In this document: piece by piece, positions 51,282-64,000 of the stretch
How positions within the stretch are numbered: position 1 is the first letter of the stretch
Layout: each line of letters starts with the position of its first letter
Assembly (NCBI GenBank): GCA_002104905.1
Contig: MCFE01000139.1
Span: 93,455 to 157,454 of the forward strand
DNA: 64,000 nt
Direction of reading: 5' to 3'
Origin: Basidiobolus meristosporus CBS 931.73
Lineage: Eukaryota; Basidiobolomycota; Basidiobolomycetes; Basidiobolales; Basidiobolaceae
Notes under the pieces: model-generated
Database searches by the model: none
What the model was told of the DNA's origin: nothing
What the model saw: the letters and a program-made list of their open reading frames with translations, nothing else
Translations under genes and position numbers: made by a program

Positions 51282-51733
51282 TTAACAAAATTGAATGGTG
51301 TAATCCCCACTACAAGTGAAGATGGATGTAGCATCATCATAGGCGTAACTGTAGCAGAAGGGACAGGCTGATTTGAACAGCTTGGAGTATTTACTTGGGT
51401 GACAGGTTTGAGGTGTGCTGTCTGGGCCAGAGCAGCAGTACTGGGGCAACCCAAAGGCGCTACAGGCGGACTCGCACCCAACTACGTCTCCATTGTGGTC
51501 GCGAATCTGGAGTGGTCCGGGGCAGATGAGATTGATGTCTTTCTTGACAGTGGGGCTTCCACAGGAGTATGGGTCTCCCCAGTTGGGAACCTTAGAGTGA
51601 GGTTGAATAGAGACGGGCAAGTTGTACCCATCCACAAGCAATACATCATAATAATCAAGATTGTTCCAGCCGTTGAAGGTGAATTTGGCTAAAGAAGCAG
51701 GTGGTCTGCTGGAGATATAGCCACAGCACTCCT
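51282..51733 (-). pseudogene. Thaumatin-like protein, 5'-truncated
   Basis: Minus-strand reading from about 51733 gives the C-terminal ~150 residues of a thaumatin-like protein: RPPASLAKFTFNGW, YYDVLLVDGYNLPVSI, then CESACSAFG, QYCCSG, CHPSKYSKLFKSACP and a final CSGDYTIQFC with the expected cysteines. These secreted beta-glucan-binding proteins normally have another 60-90 residues before this point, including a signal peptide. Here the sequence to the right becomes LINE coding sequence at about 51735-51745, so the 5' part of the gene is missing. A CTAG acceptor at 51734-51737 could also mark an intron, but no upstream exon is found. Confidence 0.75.
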
Positions 51734-51734
51734 C

Positions 51735-53024
51735 TAGTAATCTTATTGACTAAGATCTTCAAAGGATTCTTGGGTGATGCTTTTGCATAGTGCTGTCCAA
51801 ACCTGATACCTAAAGTCTAAAATCTGATTGGCACAGCCTCAATACCAGTCAGACTATGTATAAGCCTCTGATATTGCTTAGAATGGTAGTCAGAAGCATT
51901 GACTACCCAGCCAATAGCTTCTTGCTGCAGAGCTTGTAGTTCGGTAATGAGGTCATGATCAGCAGCTAAACACATCATAGGTGGAGCATACTCCAATGAC
52001 AACCTCACAAAGGCCTTGAATAGCTGTAACCTAATCAGGGGATGCCATCTGGCCCCTTTGAGCCGTAGGAATCTCAAAGTGGCAGAAGCCCTTTGAATAC
52101 ACTTTTCAGTGCAAGCTGCCCAAGAAATACCACTTTGACAGGTTGGGAGTCCAAGGTAGCTGTAAGAGGAAGGCTGAGGCAGAAGGGAGTTATAGAAGGA
52201 AATATTCCACTCTGGTGTAGGACCAATGTATGCTGATTTAGCACTATTAACTTCCATACCATTGGCAGTACACCATTGGCTGACTTTACTTAGCAAATGA
52301 TTAGCTTCTGAGAGACTCCTAGGCAGCAATTGTATGTCATCAGCAAATTACAATGCTGAGGGCACAGCAGCTCCTGAGTCATTGAAGCAGAGACTTTGAG
52401 CCAGGTCATCAATGTAGACATTGAACAGGATTGGTGAAAGCAAAGATCCCTGGAATAACCCCCTGAGCCTGGGAAATGGAGATGATATCACACCATTAAC
52501 ACTAATAGTGGAATAGCAGGCCAAGAAGAGTGAGTGTACATCCTAAGAAGCTGACTGGATACATTCAGGTTCTTTAGCTTCTTCAGGAGTATTGGGATCA
52601 CTACCCTATCATATTCTTGTTTCAGGTCAATAACAATTCTGTGTTTCCTTTCTTCATGACTAGATAGGTAAAAAGCATCATGAGATACTCCTGAATGTGT
52701 TACAGTAGAGGAGCCACCCCTAAAGCCAACTTGTGCAGGATGAAACCGGGCTAAGGGGGAGTCCTTCAGGTAGTTCAGGAGGCAGACCTCAAATATTCTT
52801 CTAAGCATTGGTGTCAAGGCAATAGGCCTGAGGTTGTCAATGGTTGAGGTAGTGGACTACTTTGGCAAAGGGTGAATATGAGAGAAATTTCACTGTGAAG
52901 GGGTAAACCTAAGCCTGAGGCACTGATGGAAGAAAATCTTCAAATCATCTATAAAAGCTGCATTTCTAGCCAAATCCTTGAGAATGCATATATGAAGAGG
53001 GTCCAGACCAGTGTGGTAGGGTAA
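51735..53024 (-). pseudogene. LINE-type non-LTR retrotransposon RT fragment (second LINE family)
   Basis: The minus-strand reading has RT motifs in order: TGLDPLHICIL (~53000), NLRPIALTPMLRRIFE (~52830), HPAQVGFRGGSS, IVIDLKQEYDRV (motif A) and FADDIQLLPRSL (motif C, ~52335). The TAA directly before FADD and the stop at HPLPK* inactivate it. The C-terminal part runs to about 51740, where it abuts the thaumatin-like gene without a 3' UTR. The sequence differs clearly from the telomeric LINE further right. Confidence 0.8.
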
Positions 53025-54511
53025 ACATACCTCCCACAGACAAGTTTATTCATATAGCTATTATCATGCACTTATCCATATTTTATCTTATCAGTATTAT
53101 CCCATTCTTCTTTTGCCCATATTTTTAGTATTTTCCCCATATGATGTTTACCCTGATTAGTTGGATGTGCTGTGCCTCTTAGAACCTTCCAGGGCCTTCT
53201 TGGAGTATTTTAGCTCATAGTGATGTCATCAAGAATTCCACTGATGCCTGGAATTTGCTAGAACCTTGTCATTAGTGATCACTTGGCAATCAGGAAAAGT
53301 ATTTAAGGGAAGTCAATCCCTCACCAATGAATCATCCCTTTGATCAGTAACACTTCTCCCTTATTGATTATCAGTTGATCACTGCACTGGCCTTCAACAG
53401 ATACATCTCAGATCTGCCATCAAGGAGCTTTTCAGGGTAGTGCACAAGACACACAGAGACTTTTGGAGACACTTGGAGCACCTAGGAAGCTAGAGAAACA
53501 GGAGCTTTTACCATAGTGACATCTTGACAAAGACATCAGCAGTTTAGAGCCAGAGGTTATTGCACCAATCAGACACTTCACTCACCTTGAGTAGTGTAGC
53601 TTTACCCAGGGGTACCTCTACACCACCATACCAGCAGACTAGGAAGAGGGATACTTGCTGATTGTAAGAAGAAGAGACTTGGTAGTGAATCATAGACTAC
53701 CAGAAAGGGTGTCTTGCATGAAAGACCCAGATGCTGGAGTCCAGCCCTCTTTAGGGCAATGAGCAGGTGGGTATGCATATACTACTTGAAAGTACTTGTA
53801 TGCATCATCCACAGCAGAGATACCAGGATCTCTGGAACTCATATTACTTCTGCCTGAGTTACCCTTTGAGTTTGCTTGAATTTCACAGCATCCTGCTGGG
53901 CAGCTTAGGCAGAGTGAAGTTGCCAAAGGGGGTCACTTCTCCTAGGACCAGATTTGGCAGCATGAACTGACTAAGTTCCCAGGTACTCCTCATATATGAT
54001 CAATACCAGGGAGTGGAAAGCAGTAAAGGCAGCATCAATAGCAGCAGAGATGGTTTCCATAGGAGAATAGGATATAAGCTCTTCTAGATGTCTCCAGGAA
54101 GCTTGCAGTATGGGGGACTCCAAAGAGTAATGGCTGCTAATGAGTGACTGAACCACTAGCTTCTCTAGTGGTAGAAGTTGCAGCTTGATTGAGTTAGAAG
54201 AAGAGGTATTCTGGGTGTTAGAGGAAGAGTGGGCCATTGGCACCACAGCAGCTATGAATATATATGGTCAGACTGGCCACACATAACATCAGACTGAAAG
54301 TACCAATGAGCTATTGTGTTGTATCTGACAAAGGCATGATCAGGAGTGCTTCCCACAACATCTATGATCCAGCAGATATGGTCTCAGGGTTCCTTGAGCT
54401 ATACATTTCTAAGATATTGAAGAATTATACTTACAGTTACAAATATTGGCTCAAAACAACACAACACATTGTAATTATGAGGTATTCAAGAGCTTTGAAA
54501 TCCACATAACT
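53025..54511. other. Retroelement debris including an LTR-like segment
   Basis: 53160-53398 matches the Gypsy LTR-like block at 22080-22350 and ends in CAACA. Just before it, AGGGTAAACAT (about 53019) is repeated inversely as ATGTTTACCCT (about 53147). Minus-strand frames at 53926-53690 and 54246-53971 are unrecognised and could be a gag or ORF1 remnant. No host gene. Confidence 0.45.
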
Positions 54512-54516
54512 GCTGC

Positions 54517-55150
54517 TTAGGGGGGGGAGACCACCAGTTGGTGTAATATTCATTGTCAATCATTGTGAAAATAAAGAAGTCAGGGATTGATTCTGCAGTC
54601 TTGTAACATATTTGTACAGACTCTTTGGGTTACTATGTAGATAGGTTGCTATTTCTTGTAGTTCCTCTGCATTGAGTAGAGTGTTGAGAGGGTGTGGTGG
54701 TAGCACTAGAAATAATAGCTTATAATCTATGTATTAAGATGTGCTTTTGCCAATTGGTGATATAAAGCAAAGAAATGGGGTTTGCTGAGTTACATACTCT
54801 TGCCATAGTTGATTAAGATACTTGCTATATGCTACTTTGGGGTTTTTACTCCCCTCTATTGCTTTGACAAATTGCTGGACTCTGGGGCACCCAATGATAA
54901 GTTGAATATGTAGTCTTGTACAGAGGTACAAAATCCTAACTGAATATGGGAGTAGTCCAAATGTTGCCAAGACTGCATGGTGATACTCTGTTGGTGGGAG
55001 CCATGGTAATAAAGTATCAATGCTGTGGGAAACAAACTTGTCCAGTTTTGTCAGATATCTTGTTGGAATAGGCATTATTGCCAATCCAAACTCCAGTATG
55101 TTGTAAGAGTCTTGGAGATATTGGAAGTGAATGGGAGGACAAGTAGATTG
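54517..55150 (-). mobile_element. Telomeric LINE, old diverged copy (E0)
   Basis: On the plus strand it starts with TTAGGGGGGGG then AGACCACCAGTTGGTG, so it has the same junction type and hairpin as the copies nearer the telomere. The minus-strand frame 55162-54734 aligns by eye with the C-terminus of the telomeric LINE ORF2: LEFGLA, KLDKFVSHSIDTLLPWLP, ATFGLLPYSVRILYLCTRL, KVAYSKYLNQLWQEYVTQQTPF. Amino acid similarity is clear but much lower than among the distal copies, so this is an older addition. A Copia LTR abuts its 5' end. Confidence 0.75.
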
Positions 55151-55783
55151 TGTGGTTTTCACTTAATGATTTATTGAATGTAGAAGTAGTATTTATACTT
55201 TTACCTGGTCTTGGCATAACAAACATGTAGAATAGATTAAGGAAGGTCCCAAGAACATGTGTGCAAAGTTTGGGGCTGTATGGACAACTTTGAGAATTTT
55301 TATGTTCTGGGTACCTGGTATTTTGGTGAAAATAATCTGAGTAAATCCCAACAAGGAATTTGGTCAGTATTCTCTAGAATTTGAGGGTAATGATTTAAGT
55401 GACCAAGTTAGGGGAATATTTAGGTGGAATTACAAACTTCTTACAACACTCCCACTCAGCTAAATGTTCACACTGACTAGTCCTAATTTAGACCTAAAAT
55501 ATTCAAACTTGACTCTAGCTAATGGTTTGGTGAACATGTCAACAATCATTTCATCTGTAGGACAGTAAACTAAGATAACTAAGTTATTCTCTATAGCTTC
55601 ACATATGAAATGGTGTCTAATATCTATGTGCTTGGTTCTAGCATGAAAAGTTGGATTTCTACCTAATTGTATACATCCTTGATTATCGTGAAATAAAGTA
55701 ATAGGTGTTTTTTGACATAGGCCTAAATCTGTAAAAAGCTTTCTTAGCCACATTGCTTCTTTTGTAGCTTCACAGGCTGCCAT
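55151..55783 (-). pseudogene. Copia 3' end (RNase H and LTR), broken
   Basis: The minus-strand frame 55783-55460 encodes the end of Copia RNase H (MAACEATKEAMWLRKLF, ARTKHIDIRHHFICEAIENN, VDMFTKPLAR). It is followed by the purine tract GAGTGGGAG and an LTR (TGTTGTAAGAAG... to ...ACCACA, 55448-55151). Toward the telomere the coding sequence is cut exactly before the expected EY codons at 55783, and retroelement E1 begins with a TAGGGG seed. Confidence 0.8.
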
Positions 55784-56216
55784 AGGGGAGGGAAAGTCAC
55801 CAAAGTAGGTGAAATCTTTATTTGATTTCAGACAAGTCTAACTACAAATAAAGAAGCCAGCTGGGAATAGAAGATTCCCAAAATAAACACTAAGTTGAAT
55901 ATGAATAAATCTAAGCTAAAGTTAAGGCAGTATCCCAGAGTACACTGGAGTTCAGGTTCATGGGGGAGTGAAGCAGATAAGCTTGAGAGATATAATAATC
56001 ATTTAAGAAGTGGGTAACAGCAGGTGAAGGGGAGTTTTTGATAAGTGAAGTGAATCTTGAGATCAGAGATTCCTCTAATGAGAAGGTTTAGTAAACTGGA
56101 GAATCAGGAAACTCTTTAAAGGCATGGTCAGTAGGTTCCCAGTAAAACTGGTCAGAGACATTTTGAGAGAATTGTTTAGCAATACTTTTGTCAAGTACAA
56201 CCTCCAGAGTGTGATG
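55783..56216 (-). mobile_element. Telomeric ORF1-only element, 5'-truncated (E1)
   Basis: The plus strand begins TAGGGGAGGGAAAGTCACC, then AAAGTAGGTGAAATCTTTATTT, the 3' end shared with E9. The coding part equals the C-terminal half of ORF1 in E9 (HHTLEVVLDKS, SDQFYWEPTDHAFKEF). A nonsense change turns the lysine after DSPVY into TAA at about 56088. Its 5' end is cut inside ORF1 at 56216. Confidence 0.85.
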
Positions 56217-57639
56217 GGTTAGGGGTTTAGGGGGGAGACAGTCACCAACAGGTGAAATTTTTATTTCAGTTGAAACAAAGAAGCCAGCAATACTGTTGTA
56301 GCTTTGATACAAGAGTGTGTAGCTGAGGGGAATTTGTAGGTAAGTTAATAAGAAGTCATGATAGTTCTTCAGTGCTCAAGACACTGTTCAGTGGGAAGGG
56401 GGGTAGCAAGAGAGGTAAGAATGACTTGTGAACAACATTAATGAGGGGAATGTGATAAGGATTGATATTCATCATAAAGGGAGTGTGCTGCTGCAGATAT
56501 TGCTGCCAAAGGTCTGTCAAGTACTTCAGGTAGGCCAGCTTGGGTTTTTCTGACTGCAGAATATAGTGAGCAAACTTCTTGACTTCTGGATCTCCAAGTA
56601 GAGTTCTCCAGCAGGAGTCAGGTGTAGTGTGGTGTGTTCTCTTCCAGGCCTTAATCAGTGGGTTGTTGCAGTTGTGAAGTCTGAGGTATAATCTGGTTCT
56701 AAGGTAGAGAAGTCTGATCTTATAGGGCATAAACCCAAAAGCACCAAGAATAGCATGTCTGTAGGGGCATTCAGGCAAATGAGGCACCAAGGAGGTAATG
56801 CACCATACTGCAAACTTGTCAAGCTTAGTGCAGTCTCTAGAAGTAAGAGAGAGATGTGGTAAGCCAAATTCCAGGACAGGGAAGACAAACTGCTTGAGTA
56901 GAAGAAGGCAGCTGGGAGCTGAAGTTGTAGGAGGAGTAACAGTCAGTAGCTTGTGGAGTGCCTGTCTTGCCAGGATAATTCTCTTCTTCAGGTGTGCTCC
57001 AGAGTCTAGTCCAGTAGGAAAGAAAGGAAAGCCAAGATATGTAGCAGAAACCTGAGCAGGTAGAGTGGAGTTCTCCAAGTTGATGGGAGAGCCCAAAGGT
57101 ACTGTCTTTGCAATGGAAAGCTGGAGATTATTCTTCTGCAGATACTGGTGGATGGTCTGAGAGTCTTGTTGCACATTGGAGGAGGATATTCTGATGTCAT
57201 CAGCAAAGAGAGTAACCAGGCAGTCAGCTGAGAGTCTTGGGAAATCATTCAGGAAGATGGCAAACAGTATAGGACCAAGCACAGAGCCTTGAACCATCCC
57301 ATTAGGAACTGAGAACACAGCTAATTGCTCACTTGGGTGCAGAATTCTTGCTTGTGGATCCAGAAACAGAGACCTGACAAGGAGGGTGAGAGAGGTACTG
57401 GAGAAGCATTGCAACTTGGACCAAAGCAGATTTCTGTCAACTGAATCAAAGGCCTTAGTAATATCAAACAGAACAGAGGGATACTTGCACTGGAGAGAGT
57501 GATCTTGGCTAAGTATGACTGCATATTCCAAGGAGAGGCCAGGAACAAAGCCAAACTGTGCAGGATGAAACTTGAGGGAGTCAGAGTAGAGCTCCTGAGC
57601 AAGCAGAAGCTCAAACACCTTTCTGCAGGTGGGCAGCAG
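56217..57639 (-). mobile_element. Telomeric LINE, 5'-truncated inside the RT (E2)
   Basis: It is seeded by GTTAGGGGTTTAGGGGGG, followed by AGACAGTCACCAACAGGTGA. The minus-strand frame 57618-56356 (420 codons) is nearly identical to the C-terminal half of ORF2 in E8, including FDITKAFDSVDRNLLW, QGSVLGPILF and LFADDIRIS. A single Ser-to-stop change (TCA to TGA) ends the protein about 23 residues early at 56356. The 5' break at 57639 lies in the RT just upstream of KVFELLLAQEL. Confidence 0.88.
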
Positions 57640-57733
57640 GGTTAGGGTTAGGGGGGAGGAAAGTCACCAAGTGGTGAAATCTTTATTTACTTATGACAAG
57701 TATCCAAAGAAGCCATGTTAATCTGAAGTAATT

Positions 57734-57852
57734 CCTAGAGAGCTAGGTCTGAGAGATATCTTCCTGGTAAGCCAGGTCTGAGAGTTGAGAAGCTGAGTGG
57801 TACTGTATTTCCTAGTTAGCTAGGTCTGAGAGAGGTTTCCTGGAAAGCCAGG
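57734..57852. repeat. Four tandem mini-hairpins in the SINE body
   Basis: Perfect 5-bp stems with 4-nt loops ending in AG: CCTAG-AGAG-CTAGG, CCTGG-TAAG-CCAGG, CCTAG-TTAG-CTAGG and CCTGG-AAAG-CCAGG, each followed by TCTGAGA or CCTGAGA. The fourth base pair alternates A-T and G-C with pairing kept. E5, E6 and E7 carry parts of the same array. Confidence 0.8.
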
Positions 57853-58110
57853 CCTGAGAAGTGAGAATCTGAGTATATCTGAGGTGAGTTGTACTGATTT
57901 GCGGTAGCTTGTTTGTGGCCAGAATGGCCAGTAGACTGGGGAAACTGAGCGGTATTCCTGGGCGATCACTGGCCAAATTTACTAGGCAAATCTGACCAAT
58001 TAGCATTTCAAGGATTTCAGCCAATCAGAGCCTTTACTTTGCCCAATGGTTGATCAAGCCATCTCCCAATGAGCACACATCAATTTATTAATCAAATTTT
58101 GCTGGATCCA

Positions 58111-58164
58111 GGATTTGAACCCACAACCATGGGTATGGAAGGGTTAGGGATAACCACAAGGCTA
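58111..58164 (-). promoter_or_regulatory. Internal Pol III promoter (A and B boxes) of the SINE
   Basis: The A box TAGCCTTGTGG is the complement of 58154-58164 and the B box GGTTCAAATCC is the complement of 58111-58121. They match the tRNA consensus except for one A-box position. E6 retains the B box (complement of 59390-59400), but its A box is cut at the junction. Confidence 0.7.
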
Positions 58165-58174
58165 AGTGTTCTTG

Positions 58175-58692
58175 GTTAGGGGGAGACAGTCACCAACAGG
58201 TGAAATCTTTATTTCAGTTGAAGCAAAGAAGCCAGCGCTACTGTTGTAGCTTTGATACAAGAGTGTGTAGCTGAGGGGAATTTGTAGGTAAGTTAATAAG
58301 AAGTGATGATAGTTCTTCAGTGCTCAAGACACTGTTCAGTGGGAAGGGGGGTAGCAAGAGAGGTAAGAATGACTTGTGAACAACATTAATGAGGGGAATG
58401 TGATAAGGATTGATATTCATCATAAAGGGAGTGTGCTGCTGCAGATATTGCTGCCAAAGGTCTGTCAAGTACTTCAGGTAGGCCAGCTTGGGTTTTTCTG
58501 ACTGCAGAATATAGTGAGCAAACTTCTTGACTTCAGGATCTCCAAGTATAGTTCTCCAGCAGGAGCCAGGTGTTGTGTGGTGTGTTCTCTTCCATGCCTT
58601 AATCAGTGGGTTGTTGCAGTTGTGAAGTCTGAGGTATAATCTGGTTCTAAGGTAGAGAAGTCTGATCTTAAAGGGCATAAACCCAAAAGCAC
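58175..58692 (-). mobile_element. Telomeric LINE 3' fragment (E4)
   Basis: It is seeded by TTAGGGGG then AGACAGTCACCAACAGGTGA. It encodes the last 146 residues of ORF2 (58678-58238, from FKIRLLYLRTRL to LVSKLQQ), intact at the end, unlike E2. It is cut at 58692. Confidence 0.85.
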
Positions 58693-58922
58693 TTAGGGTT
58701 AGGGGGGGGGGAGGAAAGTCACCAAGTGGTGAAATCTTTATTTACTTATGACAAGTATATAAGAAGCCAAGTTAATCTGAAGTTATTCCTAGAAAGCTAG
58801 GTCTGAGAGAGGTTTCCTGGAAAGCCAGGCCTGAGATGTGAGAATCTGAATATATCTGAGCTAAGTTATACTGGTTTGCGGTAGCTGAATTGTGGCCGGA
58901 ATGGCCAGTAGACTGGGGGAAC
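58693..58922 (-). mobile_element. Telomeric SINE fragment (E5)
   Basis: It is seeded by TTAGGGTTAGG and a long G run, then GAGGAAAGTCACCAAGTGGTGA. It lacks two of the four mini-hairpins found in E3 (an internal deletion) and is cut before the tRNA-like head. Confidence 0.8.
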
Positions 58923-59436
58923 TTAGGGTTAGGGGAGGAAAGTCACCAAGTGGTGAAATCTTTATTTACTTATGACAAGTATTTAAAGAAGCCAAGTTAA
59001 TCTGAAGTAATTCCTAGAAAGCTAGGTCTGAGAGATATCTTCCTGGTAAGCCAGGTCTGAGAGTTGAGAAGCTGAGTGGTACTATATTTCCTAGTTAGCT
59101 AGGTCTGAGAGAGGTTTCCTGGAAAGCCAGGCCTGAGAAGTGAGAATCTGAGTATATCTGAGGTGAGTTGTACTGATTTGCGGTAGCTTGTTTGTGGCCA
59201 GAATGGCCAGTAGACTGGGGGAACTGAGGGGTATTTCTGGGCGATCACTGGCCAAATTTACTAGGCAAATTTGACCAATTAGCATTTCAAGGATTTCAGC
59301 CAATCAGAGCCTTTACTTTGCCCGATGGTTGATCAAGCCATCTCCCAATGAGCACACATCAATTTATTGATCAAATTTTGTTGGATCCAGGATTTGAACC
59401 CACAACCATGGGTATGGAAGGGTTAGGGATAACCAC
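58923..59436 (-). mobile_element. Telomeric SINE, near full length (E6)
   Basis: Seed TTAGGGTTAGGGG. It is nearly identical to E3 over its length, including the hairpin array and B box, and lacks only about the last 20 nt of the tRNA-like 5' head, ending within the A box at ATAACCAC. Confidence 0.85.
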
Positions 59437-59551
59437 TTAGGGTTAGGGGGGAGGAAAGTCACCAAGTGGTGAAATCTTTATTTACTTATGACAAGTATCT
59501 AAAGAAGCCAAGTTAATCTGAAGTAATTCCTAGAAAGCTAGGTCTGAGAGA
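59437..59551 (-). mobile_element. Telomeric SINE 3' fragment (E7)
   Basis: Seed TTAGGGTTAGGGGGG. Only the last ~100 nt of the SINE are present, through the first mini-hairpin, before the next element begins. Confidence 0.8.
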
Positions 59552-59596
59552 GGGGGGGAGATAGTCACCAACAGGTGAAATCTTTATTCAGTTGAA
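59552..59596 (-). promoter_or_regulatory. Shared 3' terminal signal of the telomeric retroelements
   Basis: On the minus strand: AATAAAG, then TTTCACC-TGTT-GGTGA, then a short pyrimidine stretch and a C run. The same arrangement ends E0-E9 with loop variants ACTT (SINE), TACTTT (ORF1-only) and AACT (E0). It is probably the polyadenylation signal plus the RT recognition hairpin; the C run can pair with the telomeric G strand. Confidence 0.7.
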
Positions 59597-59611
59597 ACAA
59601 AGAAGCCAGCG

Positions 59612-62380
59612 CTACTGTTGTAGCTTTGATACAAGAGTGTGTAGCTGAGGGGAATTTGTAGGTAAGTTAATAAGCAGTGATGATAGTTCTTCAGTGCTCA
59701 AGACACTGTTCAGTGGGAAGGGGGGTAGCAAGAGAGGTAAGAATGACTTGTGAACAACACTAATGAGGGGAATGTGATAAGGATTGATATTCATCATAAA
59801 GGGAGTGTGCTGCTGCAGATATTGCTGCCAAAGGTCTGTCAAGTACTTCAGGTAGGCCAGCTTGGGTTTTTCTGACTGCAGAATATAGTGAGCAAGCTTC
59901 TTGACTTCAGGATCTCCAAGTATAGTTCTCCAGCAGGAGTCAGGTGTTGTGTGGTGTGTTCTCTTCCAGGCCTTAATCAGTGGGTTGTTGCAGTTGTGAA
60001 GTCTGAGGTATAATCTGGTTCTAAGGTAGAGAAGTCTGATCTTATAGGGCATAAACCCAAAAGCACCAAGAATAGCATGTCTGTAGGGGCATTCAGGCAA
60101 ATGAGGCACCAAGGAGGTAATGCACCATACTGCAAACTTGTCAAGCTTAGTGCAGTCTCTAGAAGTAAGAGAGAGAAGTGGTAAGCCAAATTCCAGGACA
60201 GGGAAGACAAACTGCTTGAGTAGAAGGAGGCAGCTGGGAGCTGAAGTTGTAGGAGGAGTAACAGCCAGTAGCTTGTGGAGTGCCTGTCTTGCCAGGATAA
60301 TTCTCTTCTTCAGGTGTGCTCCAGAGTCTAGTCCAGTAGGAAGGAAAGGAAAGCCAAGATATGTAGCAGAAACCTGAGCAGGTAGAGTGGAGTTCTCCAA
60401 GTTGATGGGAGAGCCCAAAGGTACTGTCTTTGCAATGGAAAGCTGGAGATTATTCTTCTGCAGATACTGGTGGATGGTCTGGGAGTCTTGTTGCACATTG
60501 GAGGAGGATATTCTGATGTCATCAGCAAAGAGAGTAACCAGGCAGTCAGCTGAGAGTCTTGGGAAATCATTCAGGAAGATGGCAAACAGTATAGGACCAA
60601 GCACAGAGCCTTGAACCACACCATTAGGAACTGAGAAAACAGCTGATTGCTCACTTGGGTGCAGAATTCTTGCTTGTGGATCCAGAAACAGAGACCTGAC
60701 AAGGAGGGTGAGAGAGGTACTGGAGAAGCATTGCAACTTGGACCAAAGCAGATTTCTGTCAACTGAATCAAAGGCCTTAGTAATATCAAACAGAACAGAG
60801 GGATACTTGCACTGGAGAGAGTGATCTTGGCTAAGTATGACTGCATATTCCAAGGAGAGGCCAGGAACAAAGCCAAACTGTGCAGGATGAAACTTGAGGG
60901 AGTCAGAGGAGAGCTCCTGAGCAAGCAGAAGCTCAAACACCTTTCTGCAGGTGGGCAGCAGAGATATTGGCCTGTAGGAGCTAGGATCCAGGTGCTTTCC
61001 TTTACCCTTGTACAGTGGCAGAACATTTGCAAAGGACCATTCCTCAGGAGTAGAAAGCTGGGCTGAGCATTGCTGAAACAGTGGAAGCAGAAGTGCAGAC
61101 ATGGCCTTGGTACTAGTCTTCAGAAGCTCATAGGAGATTGTGTCCACACCTGGAGCAGTAGAGTTGGGAAGCCTCTTGAGCACATTATGGATTCTCCTTT
61201 GATCAAGTGCAAGTGGGATGGGCAGAGTCTTGAAGTCAGGATGAAAGCCAGGAGTTGAGTACTGCTTTGTAGAGAAGAAGATGTTAGCCAGCTGTTCTGT
61301 TGAAGGTAACTTCCTGGAAGAGGGCCTCATTGCCCTGTAGAGTCTTGATACTGTTCTTGTTATAGAGTTGGAAGATTGCAGAGGCAAGGAACTCATAATA
61401 TGATCCCAGAGCTGAGTATGCAGAGTGTGGTGAATTGCCTTGGAGTGGTGTATTGCTGTCAGGAGGAGTTTCTCTGTTTTTGGGTTAGGGAAGCTCAGGT
61501 AGCTTTGTTGCAGGGCTGAAACAATGGATTCCCATTTTCTTGAGGTAACAGCAGTAGTCTTGCATGGCAGTGAGAGGGAGGCAGACACCAGAATAAGATG
61601 CTTCACAAAGAGCCAGGCAAAGTTGAGATCATCTGGCAGAGAAAGTAGCAAACTGGCAAGCTTCAAGTAGTTCCCAAAGTCTTTCTTCTGATTCTTGGTA
61701 GCTTTGTGGGTGAGCACAGTAAGTTTTGGCAGCTTCTTCTTCACAACTGGTTGCATAGAAAGGGACCAGGCTGGGTGGTCAGAGGCTCTCAAGGATCCTA
61801 GCTCAGCTCCAGAGAATTGCTTAACTTCATTCACAAAGTAGAGGGCAGCAGCAGAAGGGCAGATCCAGTCAACACATCTTTTCTCAGATTGAGCACCTAG
61901 TGCTAGCAGGTGGCTTTCTCTCAGGAAGTTCAGTAGGAATGTAGACCTTGGCTTCATTCTTGCCGTCAGAGTAGTCTTGTTCTCAGGATGGGGAATGTTG
62001 AGATCTCCAAGCAAGATAACAGGTGTTGATATAGACTGTTGGTATTGCTGAACCTTCTGGCATATAACTTGCACTTCCTGAAGGGCTAGACTTGGAGGCA
62101 GATAGCAGAGCACCAGACTGATAGTTGGCAACTGGAGAGCAGCACAGTAAGGGGAGTAAAGAGGAACACAGAGCTGAGGAGTATTGATGGTAGAAGAGAT
62201 GAAGCAGATAGAGGAGGTATTCTTTGTTCTAGGAGTAGAAAAGCAATATAGATTAGTCAAAAGTATAGAGGGTAGCTGGACATCAATCAAACACAGGAGG
62301 GAAAATCTTGAAAGAAGTCTCTCTAGAGTTGGTCTTGATGGCTGTATGCTGTTGCAGTTAAGCAACAGAACTTCAGGTAG
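59612..62380 (-). CDS. Telomeric LINE ORF2: endonuclease-like domain and reverse transcriptase
   Basis: About 920 residues, read from the stop at 62381 onward. The N-terminal ~220 residues form an EEP/APE-like endonuclease: EVLLLNCNSI, ILLGDLNIPH, CVDWICPS and ASDHPAWS. The usual QE catalytic glutamate position appears to read ID (LLCLIDVQL). The RT domain follows with PLYKGKGKHLDPSSYRPISL, HPAQFGFVPGLS, LFDITKAFDSVDR (motif A), QGSVLGPILFA (motif B) and LFADDIRIS (motif C). The C-terminal ~300 residues are a conserved thumb and extension with no CCHC finger and no RNase H. The frame has no canonical ATG near its start and is continuous with the upstream ORF across one TGA. Confidence 0.88.
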   Translation of the reverse strand, partial: LPEVLLLNCNSIQPSRPTLERLLSRFSLLCLIDVQLPSILLTNLYCFSTPRTKNTSSICFISSTINTPQLCVPLYSPYCAALQLPTISLVLCYLPPSLALQEVQVICQKVQQYQQSISTPVILLGDLNIPHPENKTTLTARMKPRSTFLLNFLRESHLLALGAQSEKRCVDWICPSAAALYFVNEVKQFSGAELGSLRASDHPAWSLSMQPVVKKKLPKLTVLTHKATKNQKKDFGNYLKLASLLLSLPDDLNFAWLFVKHLILVSASLSLPCKTTAVTSRKWESIVSALQQSYLSFPNPKTEKLLLTAIHHSKAIHHTLHTQLWDHIMSSLPLQSSNSITRTVSRLYRAMRPSSRKLPSTEQLANIFFSTKQYSTPGFHPDFKTLPIPLALDQRRIHNVLKRLPNSTAPGVDTISYELLKTSTKAMSALLLPLFQQCSAQLSTPEEWSFANVLPLYKGKGKHLDPSSYRPISLLPTCRKVFELLLAQELSSDSLKFHPAQFGFVPGLSLEYAVILSQDHSLQCKYPSVLFDITKAFDSVDRNLLWSKLQCFSSTSLTLLVRSLFLDPQARILHPSEQSAVFSVPNGVVQGSVLGPILFAIFLNDFPRLSADCLVTLFADDIRISSSNVQQDSQTIHQYLQKNNLQLSIAKTVPLGSPINLENSTLPAQVSATYLGFPFLPTGLDSGAHLKKRIILARQALHKLLAVTPPTTSAPSCLLLLKQFVFPVLEFGLPLLSLTSRDCTKLDKFAVWCITSLVPHLPECPYRHAILGAFGFMPYKIRLLYLRTRLYLRLHNCNNPLIKAWKRTHHTTPDSCWRTILGDPEVKKLAHYILQSEKPKLAYLKYLTDLWQQYLQQHTPFMMNINPYHIPLISVVHKSFLPLLLPPFPLNSVLSTEELSSLLINLPTNSPQLHTLVSKLQQ

Positions 62381-62665
62381 TCAGGCAGAGGTTGTAGCTT
62401 CTTCAGAGGCAGCATTAACAATGTGACCTGCAGAGTCCCAGAGCTCTTCAAATGGTGCATCACCTAAGTCAGCAAGGAGGGAAATGGCATGGTTCTTGAG
62501 GAAGTATGCCACATCATAGGAGGGGGCTTGTCTCTTGATGGCAGCAAAGAAAGACAGAATGGCAACATGGGCTGGAGGCTTGTTGAACAGTAGAGAGTCA
62601 GAGGATTCAGATTCTTCAGGCACTATCTTGAAGTCAGTTTTCAGCCAGTTAAGGTTCTTCTCCAC
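62381..62665 (-). CDS. Telomeric LINE ORF1, C-terminal end (5'-truncated)
   Basis: 94 codons open from the truncation point (first codon GTG, so not a true start) to a TGA at 62381-62383. By eye it aligns with the C-terminus of ORF1 in E9: the pattern F..IK...P...V.xFLK....IS, then LWD.A (here FFAAIKRQAPSYDVAYFLKN and LWDSAGHI). It is in the same frame as ORF2, directly downstream. The stop context is TGA CTA. Confidence 0.75.
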   Translation of the reverse strand: MEKNLNWLKTDFKIVPEESESSDSLLFNKPPAHVAILSFFAAIKRQAPSYDVAYFLKNHAISLLADLGDAPFEELWDSAGHIVNAASEEATTSA

Positions 62666-62668
62666 AAA

Positions 62669-63782
62669 GGGTTAGGGGAGGGAAAGTCACCAAAGTAGGT
62701 GAAATCTTTATTTGATTTCAGACAAGTCTAACTACAAATAAAGAAGCCAGCTGGGAATAGAAGATTCCCAAAGTAAACACTAAGTTGAATATGAATAAAT
62801 CTAAGCTAAAGTTAAGGCAGTATCCCAGAGTACACTGGAGTTCAGGTTCATGGGGGAGTGAAGTAGATAAGCTTGAGAGATATAATAATCTTTGAGGAAG
62901 TGGGTAACAGCAGGTGAAGGGGAGTTTTTGATAAGTGAAGTGAATCTTGAGATCAGAGATTCCTCTAATGAGAAGGTCTTGTAAACTGGAGAATCAGGAA
63001 ACTCTTTGAAGGCATGGTCAGTAGGTTCCCAGTAAAACTGGTCAGAGACATTTTGAGAGAATTGATTAGCAATACTTTTGTCAAGTACTACCTCCAGAGT
63101 GTGATGGTTGATAAATCTCATGTTAACAATCTTGGATAAATTGTAACCTTGTTGCTTGAGATACATCCTATGCTCAGATATAGGAATAAACTCTACATTG
63201 GCAAAGTAGCAGACAGCCCAGTCAGTAGCAGGAGGCAAATCAGAAGTGGCAGGAAACTTTCTTTTGGTCTTGGGAGGAGCAGCAGGATGTCTTGAGGAAG
63301 CAGGAACAGACTTTTTGACAACTTCAGAGTAGGAAGAGTGAGCAGGAGCAGATGATTCTTGGGGAGTCTTGTTGGCAGGAAGAGTTGGCACAGGGACAAT
63401 AGATTCTTGCAGATCAGAGAAGGCAGAAAAGAGCTTTTGAACTTGTTTCTTGAGTAGAGCATTTTCAGCTTCAACAAGTGCAAGCCTTTCCTCAAGGAAA
63501 GAAATCTGAAGGGAATGGAGTGAAGGCATAAGAAATAAGAAGAAGAGGGTAAGATGGGGTGGGTGGGTGGGAAAATTAGCAGGGAGAAGAGAAGGAAGGA
63601 GCAAAAATTCCAGAAGTCAGAATTTATAGATGGATGGACAAGGGTAGGTGGATGGATTATTCCTGGGTTAGGAAAATTAGCAGGGAGAAGAGAAGGAAGG
63701 AGCAAAAATTCCAGAAGTCAGAATTTATAGATGGATGGACAAGGGTAGGTGGATGGATTATTCCTGGGTTAGGAAAATTAGC
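62669..63782 (-). mobile_element. Telomeric ORF1-only element, terminal copy (E9)
   Basis: A 1.1-kb element next to the telomere. On the minus strand it has two 101-bp tandem repeats as its 5' region, a complete ORF1, a ~100-nt 3' UTR and the shared 3' end AATAAAGATTTCACC, then TACTTTGGTGACT and a C run into CCCTAA. It lacks ORF2, yet its 3' end is not simply that of E8, so it is a distinct family (E1 belongs to it). Its structure recalls a non-autonomous partner of the LINE. Confidence 0.85.
62801..63529 (-). CDS. ORF1 protein of the telomeric ORF1-only element
   Basis: 242 residues from the ATG at 63529; an open extension to 63604 has no ATG. Residues ~8-45 form a coiled coil/leucine zipper (SFLEERLALVEAENALLKKQ). 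A Pro/Ser/Ala/Lys-rich basic linker follows (~55-105, PKTKRKFPA). Then comes a compact domain (~110-180) with VEFIPISEHRMYLKQQGYNL, IVNMRFINHHTLEVVL and YWEPTDHAFKEF, which resembles the RNA-binding core of LINE ORF1 proteins. The C-terminal helix region (FLKDYYISQAYLL) is shared with E8. The likely role is an RNA chaperone or particle protein, possibly acting in cis or in trans. Confidence 0.75.
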   Translation of the reverse strand: MPSLHSLQISFLEERLALVEAENALLKKQVQKLFSAFSDLQESIVPVPTLPANKTPQESSAPAHSSYSEVVKKSVPASSRHPAAPPKTKRKFPATSDLPPATDWAVCYFANVEFIPISEHRMYLKQQGYNLSKIVNMRFINHHTLEVVLDKSIANQFSQNVSDQFYWEPTDHAFKEFPDSPVYKTFSLEESLISRFTSLIKNSPSPAVTHFLKDYYISQAYLLHSPMNLNSSVLWDTALTLA

Positions 63783-63786
63783 AGGG
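63571..63786. repeat. Two 101-bp direct repeats plus a partial third, next to the telomere
   Basis: GAAAATTAGCAGGGAGAAG starts at 63571 and 63672, and GAAAATTAGCAGGG again at 63773 before running into TTAGGG. The two full copies look identical. Each unit ends CCTGGGTTAGGA, which contains a telomere-like GGGTTAGG. Confidence 0.9.
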
Positions 63787-64000
63787 TTAGGGTTAGGGTT
63801 AGGGTTAGGGTTAGGGTTAGGGTTAGGGTTAGGGTTAGGGTTAGGGTTAGGGTTAGGGTTAGGGTTAGGGTTAGGGTTAGGGTTAGGGTTAGGGTTAGGG
63901 TTAGGGTTAGGGTTAGGGTTAGGGTTAGGGTTAGGGTTAGGGTTAGGGTTAGGGTTAGGGTTAGGGTTAGGGTTAGGGTTAGGGTTAGGGTTAGGGTTAG
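63783..64000 (+). repeat. Telomere, (TTAGGG)n
   Basis: About 36 uninterrupted TTAGGG units reach the window edge. The G-rich strand runs 5' to 3' toward the right, so the right edge is the chromosome end. Confidence 0.98.

Follow-up and report, generated by a model that had tools for sequence, protein, structure and literature searches.

Head-to-tail arrays of telomere-attached non-LTR retroelements, including a SINE-like partner, at contig ends of the fungus Basidiobolus meristosporus

In Drosophila, HeT-A, TART and TAHRE form terminal head-to-tail arrays in which the 3′ end points inward and gag-only members are mixed with gag-pol members, telomerase being absent, while TRAS and SART of Bombyx insert within telomeric repeats and carry an APE-type (apurinic/apyrimidinic endonuclease-like) endonuclease (EN). 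Among fungi, MoTeR1 and MoTeR2 of Magnaporthe oryzae lie head-to-tail at TTAGGG telomeres, the reverse transcriptase (RT) of MoTeR1 being equipped with a restriction-enzyme-like (REL) endonuclease (PMC7367193). A 2023 survey names SART/TRAS, GilM/GilT, Zepp1, MoTeR1, Tx1, Athena and the Drosophila elements as telomeric retroelements (PMC10088271). Here, we describe an array of non-LTR (non-long terminal repeat) retroelements in Basidiobolus meristosporus CBS 931.73. The window, i.e. the whole stretch of 64,000 nucleotides that was analysed, is the right end of a 157,454-bp contig (G000:C357:93455-157454) in a genome of 89.0 Mb and 1,311 contigs.

As the first-pass annotation of the window had it, ten copies (E0-E9) share one orientation, with the 3′ end on the left (centromere side) and the 5′ end on the right (telomere side), below a terminal TTAGGG tract. 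Self-comparison and genome searches assign them to four families: Z (E0), N (E1, E9), R (E2, E4, E8) and S (E3, E5, E6, E7). R and Z are related long interspersed nuclear elements (LINEs), the N product is a homologue of the protein encoded by the first open reading frame (ORF1) of R, and S, which resembles a short interspersed nuclear element (SINE), is similar to the other families in its 3′ tail alone. Two further families, T and U, lie outside the window, making six in the loci fetched from the genome; an array of a single family was thus rejected. The claim that nearly every copy starts from a telomeric seed or G-run also holds, TTAGGG being present at eight of the ten 3′ junctions and a G-run on non-telomeric DNA at the other two (E1, ...ccata then GGGG; E8, ...gagaga then GGGGGGG). 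That each copy sits on a truncated predecessor does not hold throughout, since E3 is full length. We propose, with a probability of roughly 0.72, that such arrays arise by RNA-tail-guided priming on chromosome 3′ ends and subsequent telomerase capping. From the centromere side outward, the array reads:

54517..55097, minus strand: E0, 3′ part of a Z-family LINE with the shared 3′ module (16 genomic matches; the frame at 54734-55162 looks by eye like the R ORF2 C-terminus)
55783..56226, minus strand: E1, 5′-truncated N copy (97.7% to E9) on an LTR-element fragment without a TTAGGG unit; the parent sequence continues TACTC
56227..57641, minus strand: E2, 5′-truncated R-family LINE (98.4% to E8; RVT_1 1e-21)
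57642..58175, minus strand: E3, full-length S element (SINE-like), 526 nt
58176..58692, minus strand: E4, 5′-truncated R copy (98.2% to E8)
58693..58922, minus strand: E5, 5′-truncated S copy (from self-comparison)
58923..59436, minus strand: E6, nearly full-length S copy (94.3% to E3)
59437..59551, minus strand: E7, S copy truncated to ~115 bp (97.4% to E3 and E6)
59552..62670, minus strand: E8, R-family LINE, 5′-truncated inside ORF1
62671..63784, minus strand: E9, N-family (ORF1-only) copy, the terminal-most element
63785..64000, plus strand: terminal (TTAGGG)n cap up to the contig end

The nearest counterparts in life style are MoTeR and FoTeR, both of which use REL endonucleases. Like the elements described here, MoTeRs are fungal, point their 5′ end toward the tip, combine an RT-coding with a non-RT member that has common terminal sequences, often leave short interstitial tracts and show 5′ truncations healed by telomere (PMC7367193). 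However, MoTeR1 relies on a REL endonuclease where R has an APE type, MoTeR2 contains an unrelated insert without obvious function where N encodes a conserved ORF1-like protein, and the available part of the MoTeR account mentions no SINE (PMC7367193); what S has in common with R and N is limited to a structured tail of ~40-70 nt. FoTeR, a non-LTR element of the fungus Fusarium oxysporum, is likewise confined to telomeres and preceded by tandem repeats, yet it has a REL endonuclease and its 3′ telomeric tracts comprise 3-8 copies as opposed to mostly one here (PMC12857005). HeT-A, TART and TAHRE match in their terminal head-to-tail arrays, inward 3′ ends and coexistence of ORF1/gag-only with full members. 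They differ in that B. meristosporus has TTAGGG caps and a gene with a TERT domain (Telomerase_RBD, two pieces over the family cut-off at C880:173109-173423, one with a stop inside the match, maybe an intron edge), as well as a non-coding SINE-like partner. Replacement of telomerase, as in Drosophila, is therefore not what is seen, and its loss was rejected; with the RNA-binding domain of TERT present, telomerase probably caps the ends. TRAS and SART resemble R in their APE-type endonuclease, telomeric target and close modelled EN fold (1wdu), and no SINE partner of theirs turned up in literature listings.

The same organisation recurs on many contigs. The exact shared 3′ module occurs 1,498 times, compared to zero hits for a reversed-pattern control. 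In the 65 fetched loci that hold more than one copy, each of the 222 copies is co-oriented with its neighbours. Of 125 placed copies, 123 are no more than 20 kb away from the contig end that their own 5′ end faces, where ~40 would be expected under uniform placement; for Z, 15 of 16 genomic matches fall within 12 kb of that end. Only two placed copies deviate, one inverted R copy and one internal partial Z fragment, and TTAGGG is found at the junction in 86 of the first 100 listed modules and joined directly to the 3′ end at 166 of 184 fetched junctions. These 100 modules are mostly on contigs shorter than 20 kb, where the 20-kb test is uninformative, leaving 37 informative ones on contigs longer than 60 kb. 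Together, these counts support the telomere-attached interpretation of the first-pass annotation. A TTAGGG array terminates 23 of the contigs from which elements were fetched, and the order of elements differs among them, making an assembly artefact unlikely. Because copies are near-identical, the elements appear to have been recently active.

The DNA searches scored the best 40 of 484 candidates for N (of the 40 full-length places scored, 38 are on the plus strand), the best 40 of 510 for S and all 16 for Z, and a protein search scored the best 49 of 1,389 for R; distances were available for 30 of 42 N and 30 of 45 S rows (those with loci), all 16 Z and all 49 R. Since probes for the 3′ end were used to pick the fetched loci, copies whose 3′ end is intact are over-represented. 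Duplicates among the loci were skipped, yet three overlapping locus pairs (C130, C1202, C897) stay, so the totals of 222 and of 235 copies used below hold a few copies twice.

The junctions bear on how the elements attach. Where elements are attached to TTA, the seed is a single TTAGGG unit in 108 of 155 cases and two units in 32, with between three and six units in the other 15. The terminal-most element at 16 independent contig ends rests on zero (3), one (10), two (2) or three (1) units, two of the three zero-unit ends (L053, L057) bearing variant telomere-like repeats. Caps over these last elements mostly measure 131-246 bp (one was parsed as 61 bp since the pattern broke), and random insertion into a tract of ~35 units would leave ~18 units on average. 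An A precedes the G-run at 174 of 175 junctions, including 27 of 28 outside TTA. TTAGG is absent within 26 nt at 18 of the 184 junctions. In nine of these, the parent element can be aligned up to the junction; the A is parental in all nine (chance ~2e-4 by our own estimate, taking A as 38% of non-G bases), and in six the parent continues with G or GG (in one, only one of two parents does so), while for three of the nine, other possible parents stop 2-3 nt short. Of the remaining TTAGG-less junctions, three have a non-parental A, three lack a parent and the rest align poorly. The parental A before the G-run suggests that an RNA tail ...CCCCU(A) pairs with the 3′ end on which it primes. G-run length has a family-specific mode (N 4, S 5-6, R 6-7), so the C-run is probably in part RNA-encoded, with the rest due to slippage or register. 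Simple nested insertion was rejected: R, N, S and Z together gave 235 matched copies, in loci mostly of ~3 kb, and a resumed parent was seen beyond none of them.

On the proposed mechanism, the elements would be transcribed, and autonomous LINEs (R; probably Z and T) would supply the RT, in R together with an APE-type endonuclease. The RNA 3′ tail, ...CCCC(U)(A), would pair with the 3′ end of a chromosome. As a rule this would be the TTAGGG G-strand of a telomere that has become very short, and occasionally another DNA end finishing in A(G)n. The RT would then extend this end, either as far as the 5′ end of the element or with premature termination, before telomerase puts TTAGGG on the new tip. 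Erosion and repeated rounds would leave a head-to-tail array whose stubs are separated by about one TTAGGG unit.

A common 3′ RNA module is what such priming would draw on. In all six families, TGRCTTCTTTATTT...AAATAAAGATT(T/A)CACC-loop-GGTG is followed by pyrimidines that finish in a C-run. A fold of two hairpins is predicted for ten representatives, with mononucleotide-shuffle z-scores of -1.8 to -4.3; against dinucleotide shuffles, the window modules reach -2.6 (R), -4.2 (N) and only -0.5 (S). At its tenth position, stem I has a C-G pair in R, where N and T have G-C and U has A-U, i.e. a compensatory change, and the uninterrupted stem is shorter in S and Z. ORF2 proteins of stringent-type LINEs recognise the 3′ stem-loop of their own RNA (PMC4176376). 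The present tail likewise forms 3′ stem-loops, and its recognition by the LINE enzyme is predicted; it differs in finishing with a C-run complementary to the telomere and in being directed at a chromosome end. Given such binding and the shared tail, trans-mobilisation is likely, and N, U and S are probably copied in trans by the LINE enzyme. The module of E9 lies as follows:

62678..62770, minus strand: E9 3′ RNA module, two hairpins and C-run (z -4.17)

A natural full-length R copy of 4,561 bp (contig C518, L090) encodes a 502-aa ORF1, one UGA and a 922-aa ORF2 in the same frame. ORF1 combines a zinc-ribbon-like N-terminus (by eye; Pfam matches are weak) with a coiled coil, which at residues ~150-212 is the reliable part of an otherwise low-confidence structure model (predicted local distance difference test, pLDDT, 46). 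In the window, R is represented best by E8:

59612..62380, minus strand: E8 ORF2, N-terminal APE-type endonuclease and reverse transcriptase, 922 aa
62381..62383, minus strand: single in-frame UGA between ORF1 and ORF2, a readthrough candidate (context GCC UGA CUA CCU)
62384..62671, minus strand: C-terminal remnant of E8 ORF1

ORF2 of E8 matches RVT_1 (1.7e-25) and, under its cut-off, Exo_endo_phos_2 (3.1e-4). Its AlphaFold2 model (pLDDT 78) matches L1 ORF2p and the R1 and TRAS1 EN, and the catalytic positions are conserved except for Glu to Asp in motif II (D33). An N-terminal APE fold with catalytic residues followed by an RT is the layout of an APE-type LINE, confirming the earlier view that the enzyme departs from MoTeR in this respect; Pfam gave no C-terminal domain, although no search aimed at the REL motif was made. 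Of the 49 ORF2 copies that scored best, 45 are free of stops and four contain one. The GCC UGA CUA CCU context is identical in 10 of 10 R copies (window included; the pattern used starts after CUA) and in an eleventh. UGA-CUA is a leaky stop context. Since the first Met of ORF2 is residue 142, behind most endonuclease motifs, the endonuclease has no AUG of its own, and ORF2 is probably made by readthrough from ORF1. Five relatives with 48-80% identity to ORF2, on contigs of 3.9-5.7 kb, indicate that the lineage reaches beyond the present genome, the next other LINE-type RTs being only ~30% identical. The single T locus codes for an RT C-terminus resembling that of P0005 by eye, and Z and T are probably autonomous LINEs like R. 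Two side observations concern the R 5′ region: R 5′ ends lie in ~100-bp tandem repeats (G000:C370:152366-152984 and nine other contigs), with up to seven 5′-end matches ~100 bp apart, and a telomere-like TTAGGGTTAGGGTT occurs, away from junctions, in the 5′ untranslated region of two R elements (L020:802-815; L067:1237-1250), where it is possibly a protein-binding or promoter site.

N encodes only an ORF1-like protein, as does U, whose frame is similar by eye in the one copy read; such ORF1-only elements are comparable with HeT-A. The 242-aa N protein is 30% identical to R ORF1 (BLASTP E 1e-21), and its ORF is intact in 19 of 22 distinct full-length copies. Codon differences from the window copy amount to 158 synonymous and 129 nonsynonymous changes (57 and 59 when each variant is counted once); this nonsynonymous share is below the 77% that random changes in the ORF would produce, which indicates purifying selection. 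In E9, these features map to:

62801..63616, minus strand: E9 ORF, 271-aa open frame, 242 aa from ATG, Gag-like, homologue of R ORF1
63570..63785, minus strand: 101-bp 5′ tandem repeats of N, two in E9 and about eight or nine in L021

The third type of element, S, is 526 nt long and non-coding, and its 3′ tail is common to a partner LINE in the same genome, as in SINEs. Near its 5′ end are two sequence motifs spaced as in RNA polymerase III (Pol III) promoters:

58153..58164, minus strand: E3 A box TAGCCTTGTGGT, starting at nt 14, 7 of 9 defined consensus positions
58111..58121, minus strand: E3 B box GGTTCAAATCC, starting at nt 57, 9 of 10 defined consensus positions

Their combined score of 16/19 was reached by 5 of 1,000 dinucleotide shuffles, and none of the 1,000 reached it when the A box also had to start within 20 nt of the 5′ end. 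Is S then a SINE, or a deletion derivative or unrelated short repeat that has acquired a LINE tail? For the latter speak internal repeats, a length that is considerable for a SINE and the lack of a tRNA match by ARAGORN or Rfam (the sole ARAGORN call, at the laxest setting, lay outside the head and on the opposite strand). That shuffled sequences fold as well as the S tail of the window (z -0.48) counts against the main reading. For a SINE speaks the constant 5′ end: all 44 distinct fetched heads continue TC(T/A)TGGTT, 43 of them identical through TTGGTT and one with a single change (A), and 211 exact heads exist genome-wide, 169 of them followed by TTAGGG. Box spacing, the A box at nt 14 and the absence of any T-run of four or more argue the same way, and so does the window self-comparison, in which S resembles R and N at the DNA level in the tail alone. 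We consider a non-SINE origin unlikely; with no tRNA call, the label 'SINE-like' rests on the Pol III-type boxes, the non-coding nature and the shared tail.

How the copies reach the telomere can be read in other ways. In a TRAS/SART- or MoTeR-like scheme, the APE endonuclease would nick the G strand near the base of the tract, the distal TTAGGG would stay outside and inner tracts would break later. The endonuclease is indeed retained with its catalytic positions, so nicking may still matter, its modelled fold is like that of TRAS1 and R1, and distal arrays of ~35 units persist. Breakage has been reported for MoTeR tracts once they comprise at least three TTAGGG units (PMC7367193), so the short seeds seen here could be a matter of survivorship. 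This breakage and the conserved endonuclease leave target-primed insertion some room, even though the terminal-most and presumably newest copies already sit on 0-3 units (breakage could bias these, too), 18 of 184 junctions lack TTAGG and no parent resumes; overall, we regard it as improbable. Further points weigh against priming on chromosome ends: the A before the G-run is non-parental in L023, L050 and L051, a parent resuming past a long insert could be missed in loci of this size, a partial Z copy lies 164 kb inside a contig, and one R copy (C726:56456-59221) faces away from the nearer (right) end of its 69.6-kb contig, 10 kb off, its 5′ end pointing to the left end, 59 kb away.

This R copy, one of 49, adjoins a full-length S and is joined on its 5′ side to Ty1/copia-like sequence (G000:C726:54700-60700, L091, L092); we read the pair as what may be an internalised, inverted or misjoined piece of an array. 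It illustrates that ends do rearrange, and recombination has been reported for MoTeR arrays (PMC7367193). Arrays might therefore spread chiefly by break-induced replication or unequal exchange between ends, retrotransposition being an occasional source. Family order, truncation points and seed length nevertheless vary between contigs, and the family-typical G-run lengths and A(G)n microhomology point to RNA-templated starts, leaving recombination as the chief route doubtful. Were the C726 piece a misjoin, it would recall that near-identical repeats in a fragmented assembly invite artefacts; with the same organisation in different orders on many contigs, and with copies that have diverged, we give an artefact of the repetitive end next to no credence. 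End priming over nicking, although inferred, is the reading that we prefer.

Several observations concern the surroundings of the array. Positions 55098-55782, between E0 and E1, hold the 3′ LTR (TGTTG...CAACA) and RNase H end of a Ty1/copia-like element inserted in E0 (both by eye), apparently caught in the array and then terminally truncated where E1 attached. Outside the array, 51817-52347 (minus strand) is a fragment of another reverse transcriptase (RVT_1 6.5e-6, under its cut-off), and 51282-51749 (minus strand) is a cysteine-rich open frame that may be thaumatin-like. G+C rises stepwise from ~0.40 to 0.50 near 26 kb of the window, and the array (54001-64000) has a strong positive GC skew of 0.19-0.42, i.e. 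the telomeric G strand is G-rich. Genome-wide, TTAGGGx3 occurs 8,002 times in forward and 103 times in reverse orientation, so most telomeric contig ends seem to be right-hand ones, an odd orientation bias of the assembly.

The word 'SINE' does not occur in the main text of the 2023 survey, as far as available (PMC10088271). Searches of the literature, by exact phrases and otherwise by title listings, returned nothing on point for telomeric SINEs, and searches on Basidiobolus and telomeres listed no publication that by its title deals with telomeric retroelements. What is new here is most likely the combination of a telomere-dedicated SINE-like partner with an APE-type fungal LINE guild that is most likely end-primed. 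A telomere-specialised SINE, if confirmed, would be a class that did not turn up in our literature searches, and a fungal APE-type telomeric LINE with Gag-only partners next to a telomerase gene constitutes an independent parallel to Drosophila HeT-A/TART. The system allows tests of what leads an RT to prefer a chromosome end to a nick, and of whether end maintenance can be shared between retroelements and telomerase; the minimal shared 3′ tail (~65 nt) is a ready substrate for biochemical end-priming tests. Tentatively, and at somewhat less than even odds, telomerase may maintain the ends of this early-diverging fungus together with a cooperating guild that comprises LINEs, Gag-only elements and a telomere-dedicated SINE, whose telomere-complementary RNA tails would act as long, telomerase-like templates on bare ends, copied by a LINE enzyme made through readthrough.

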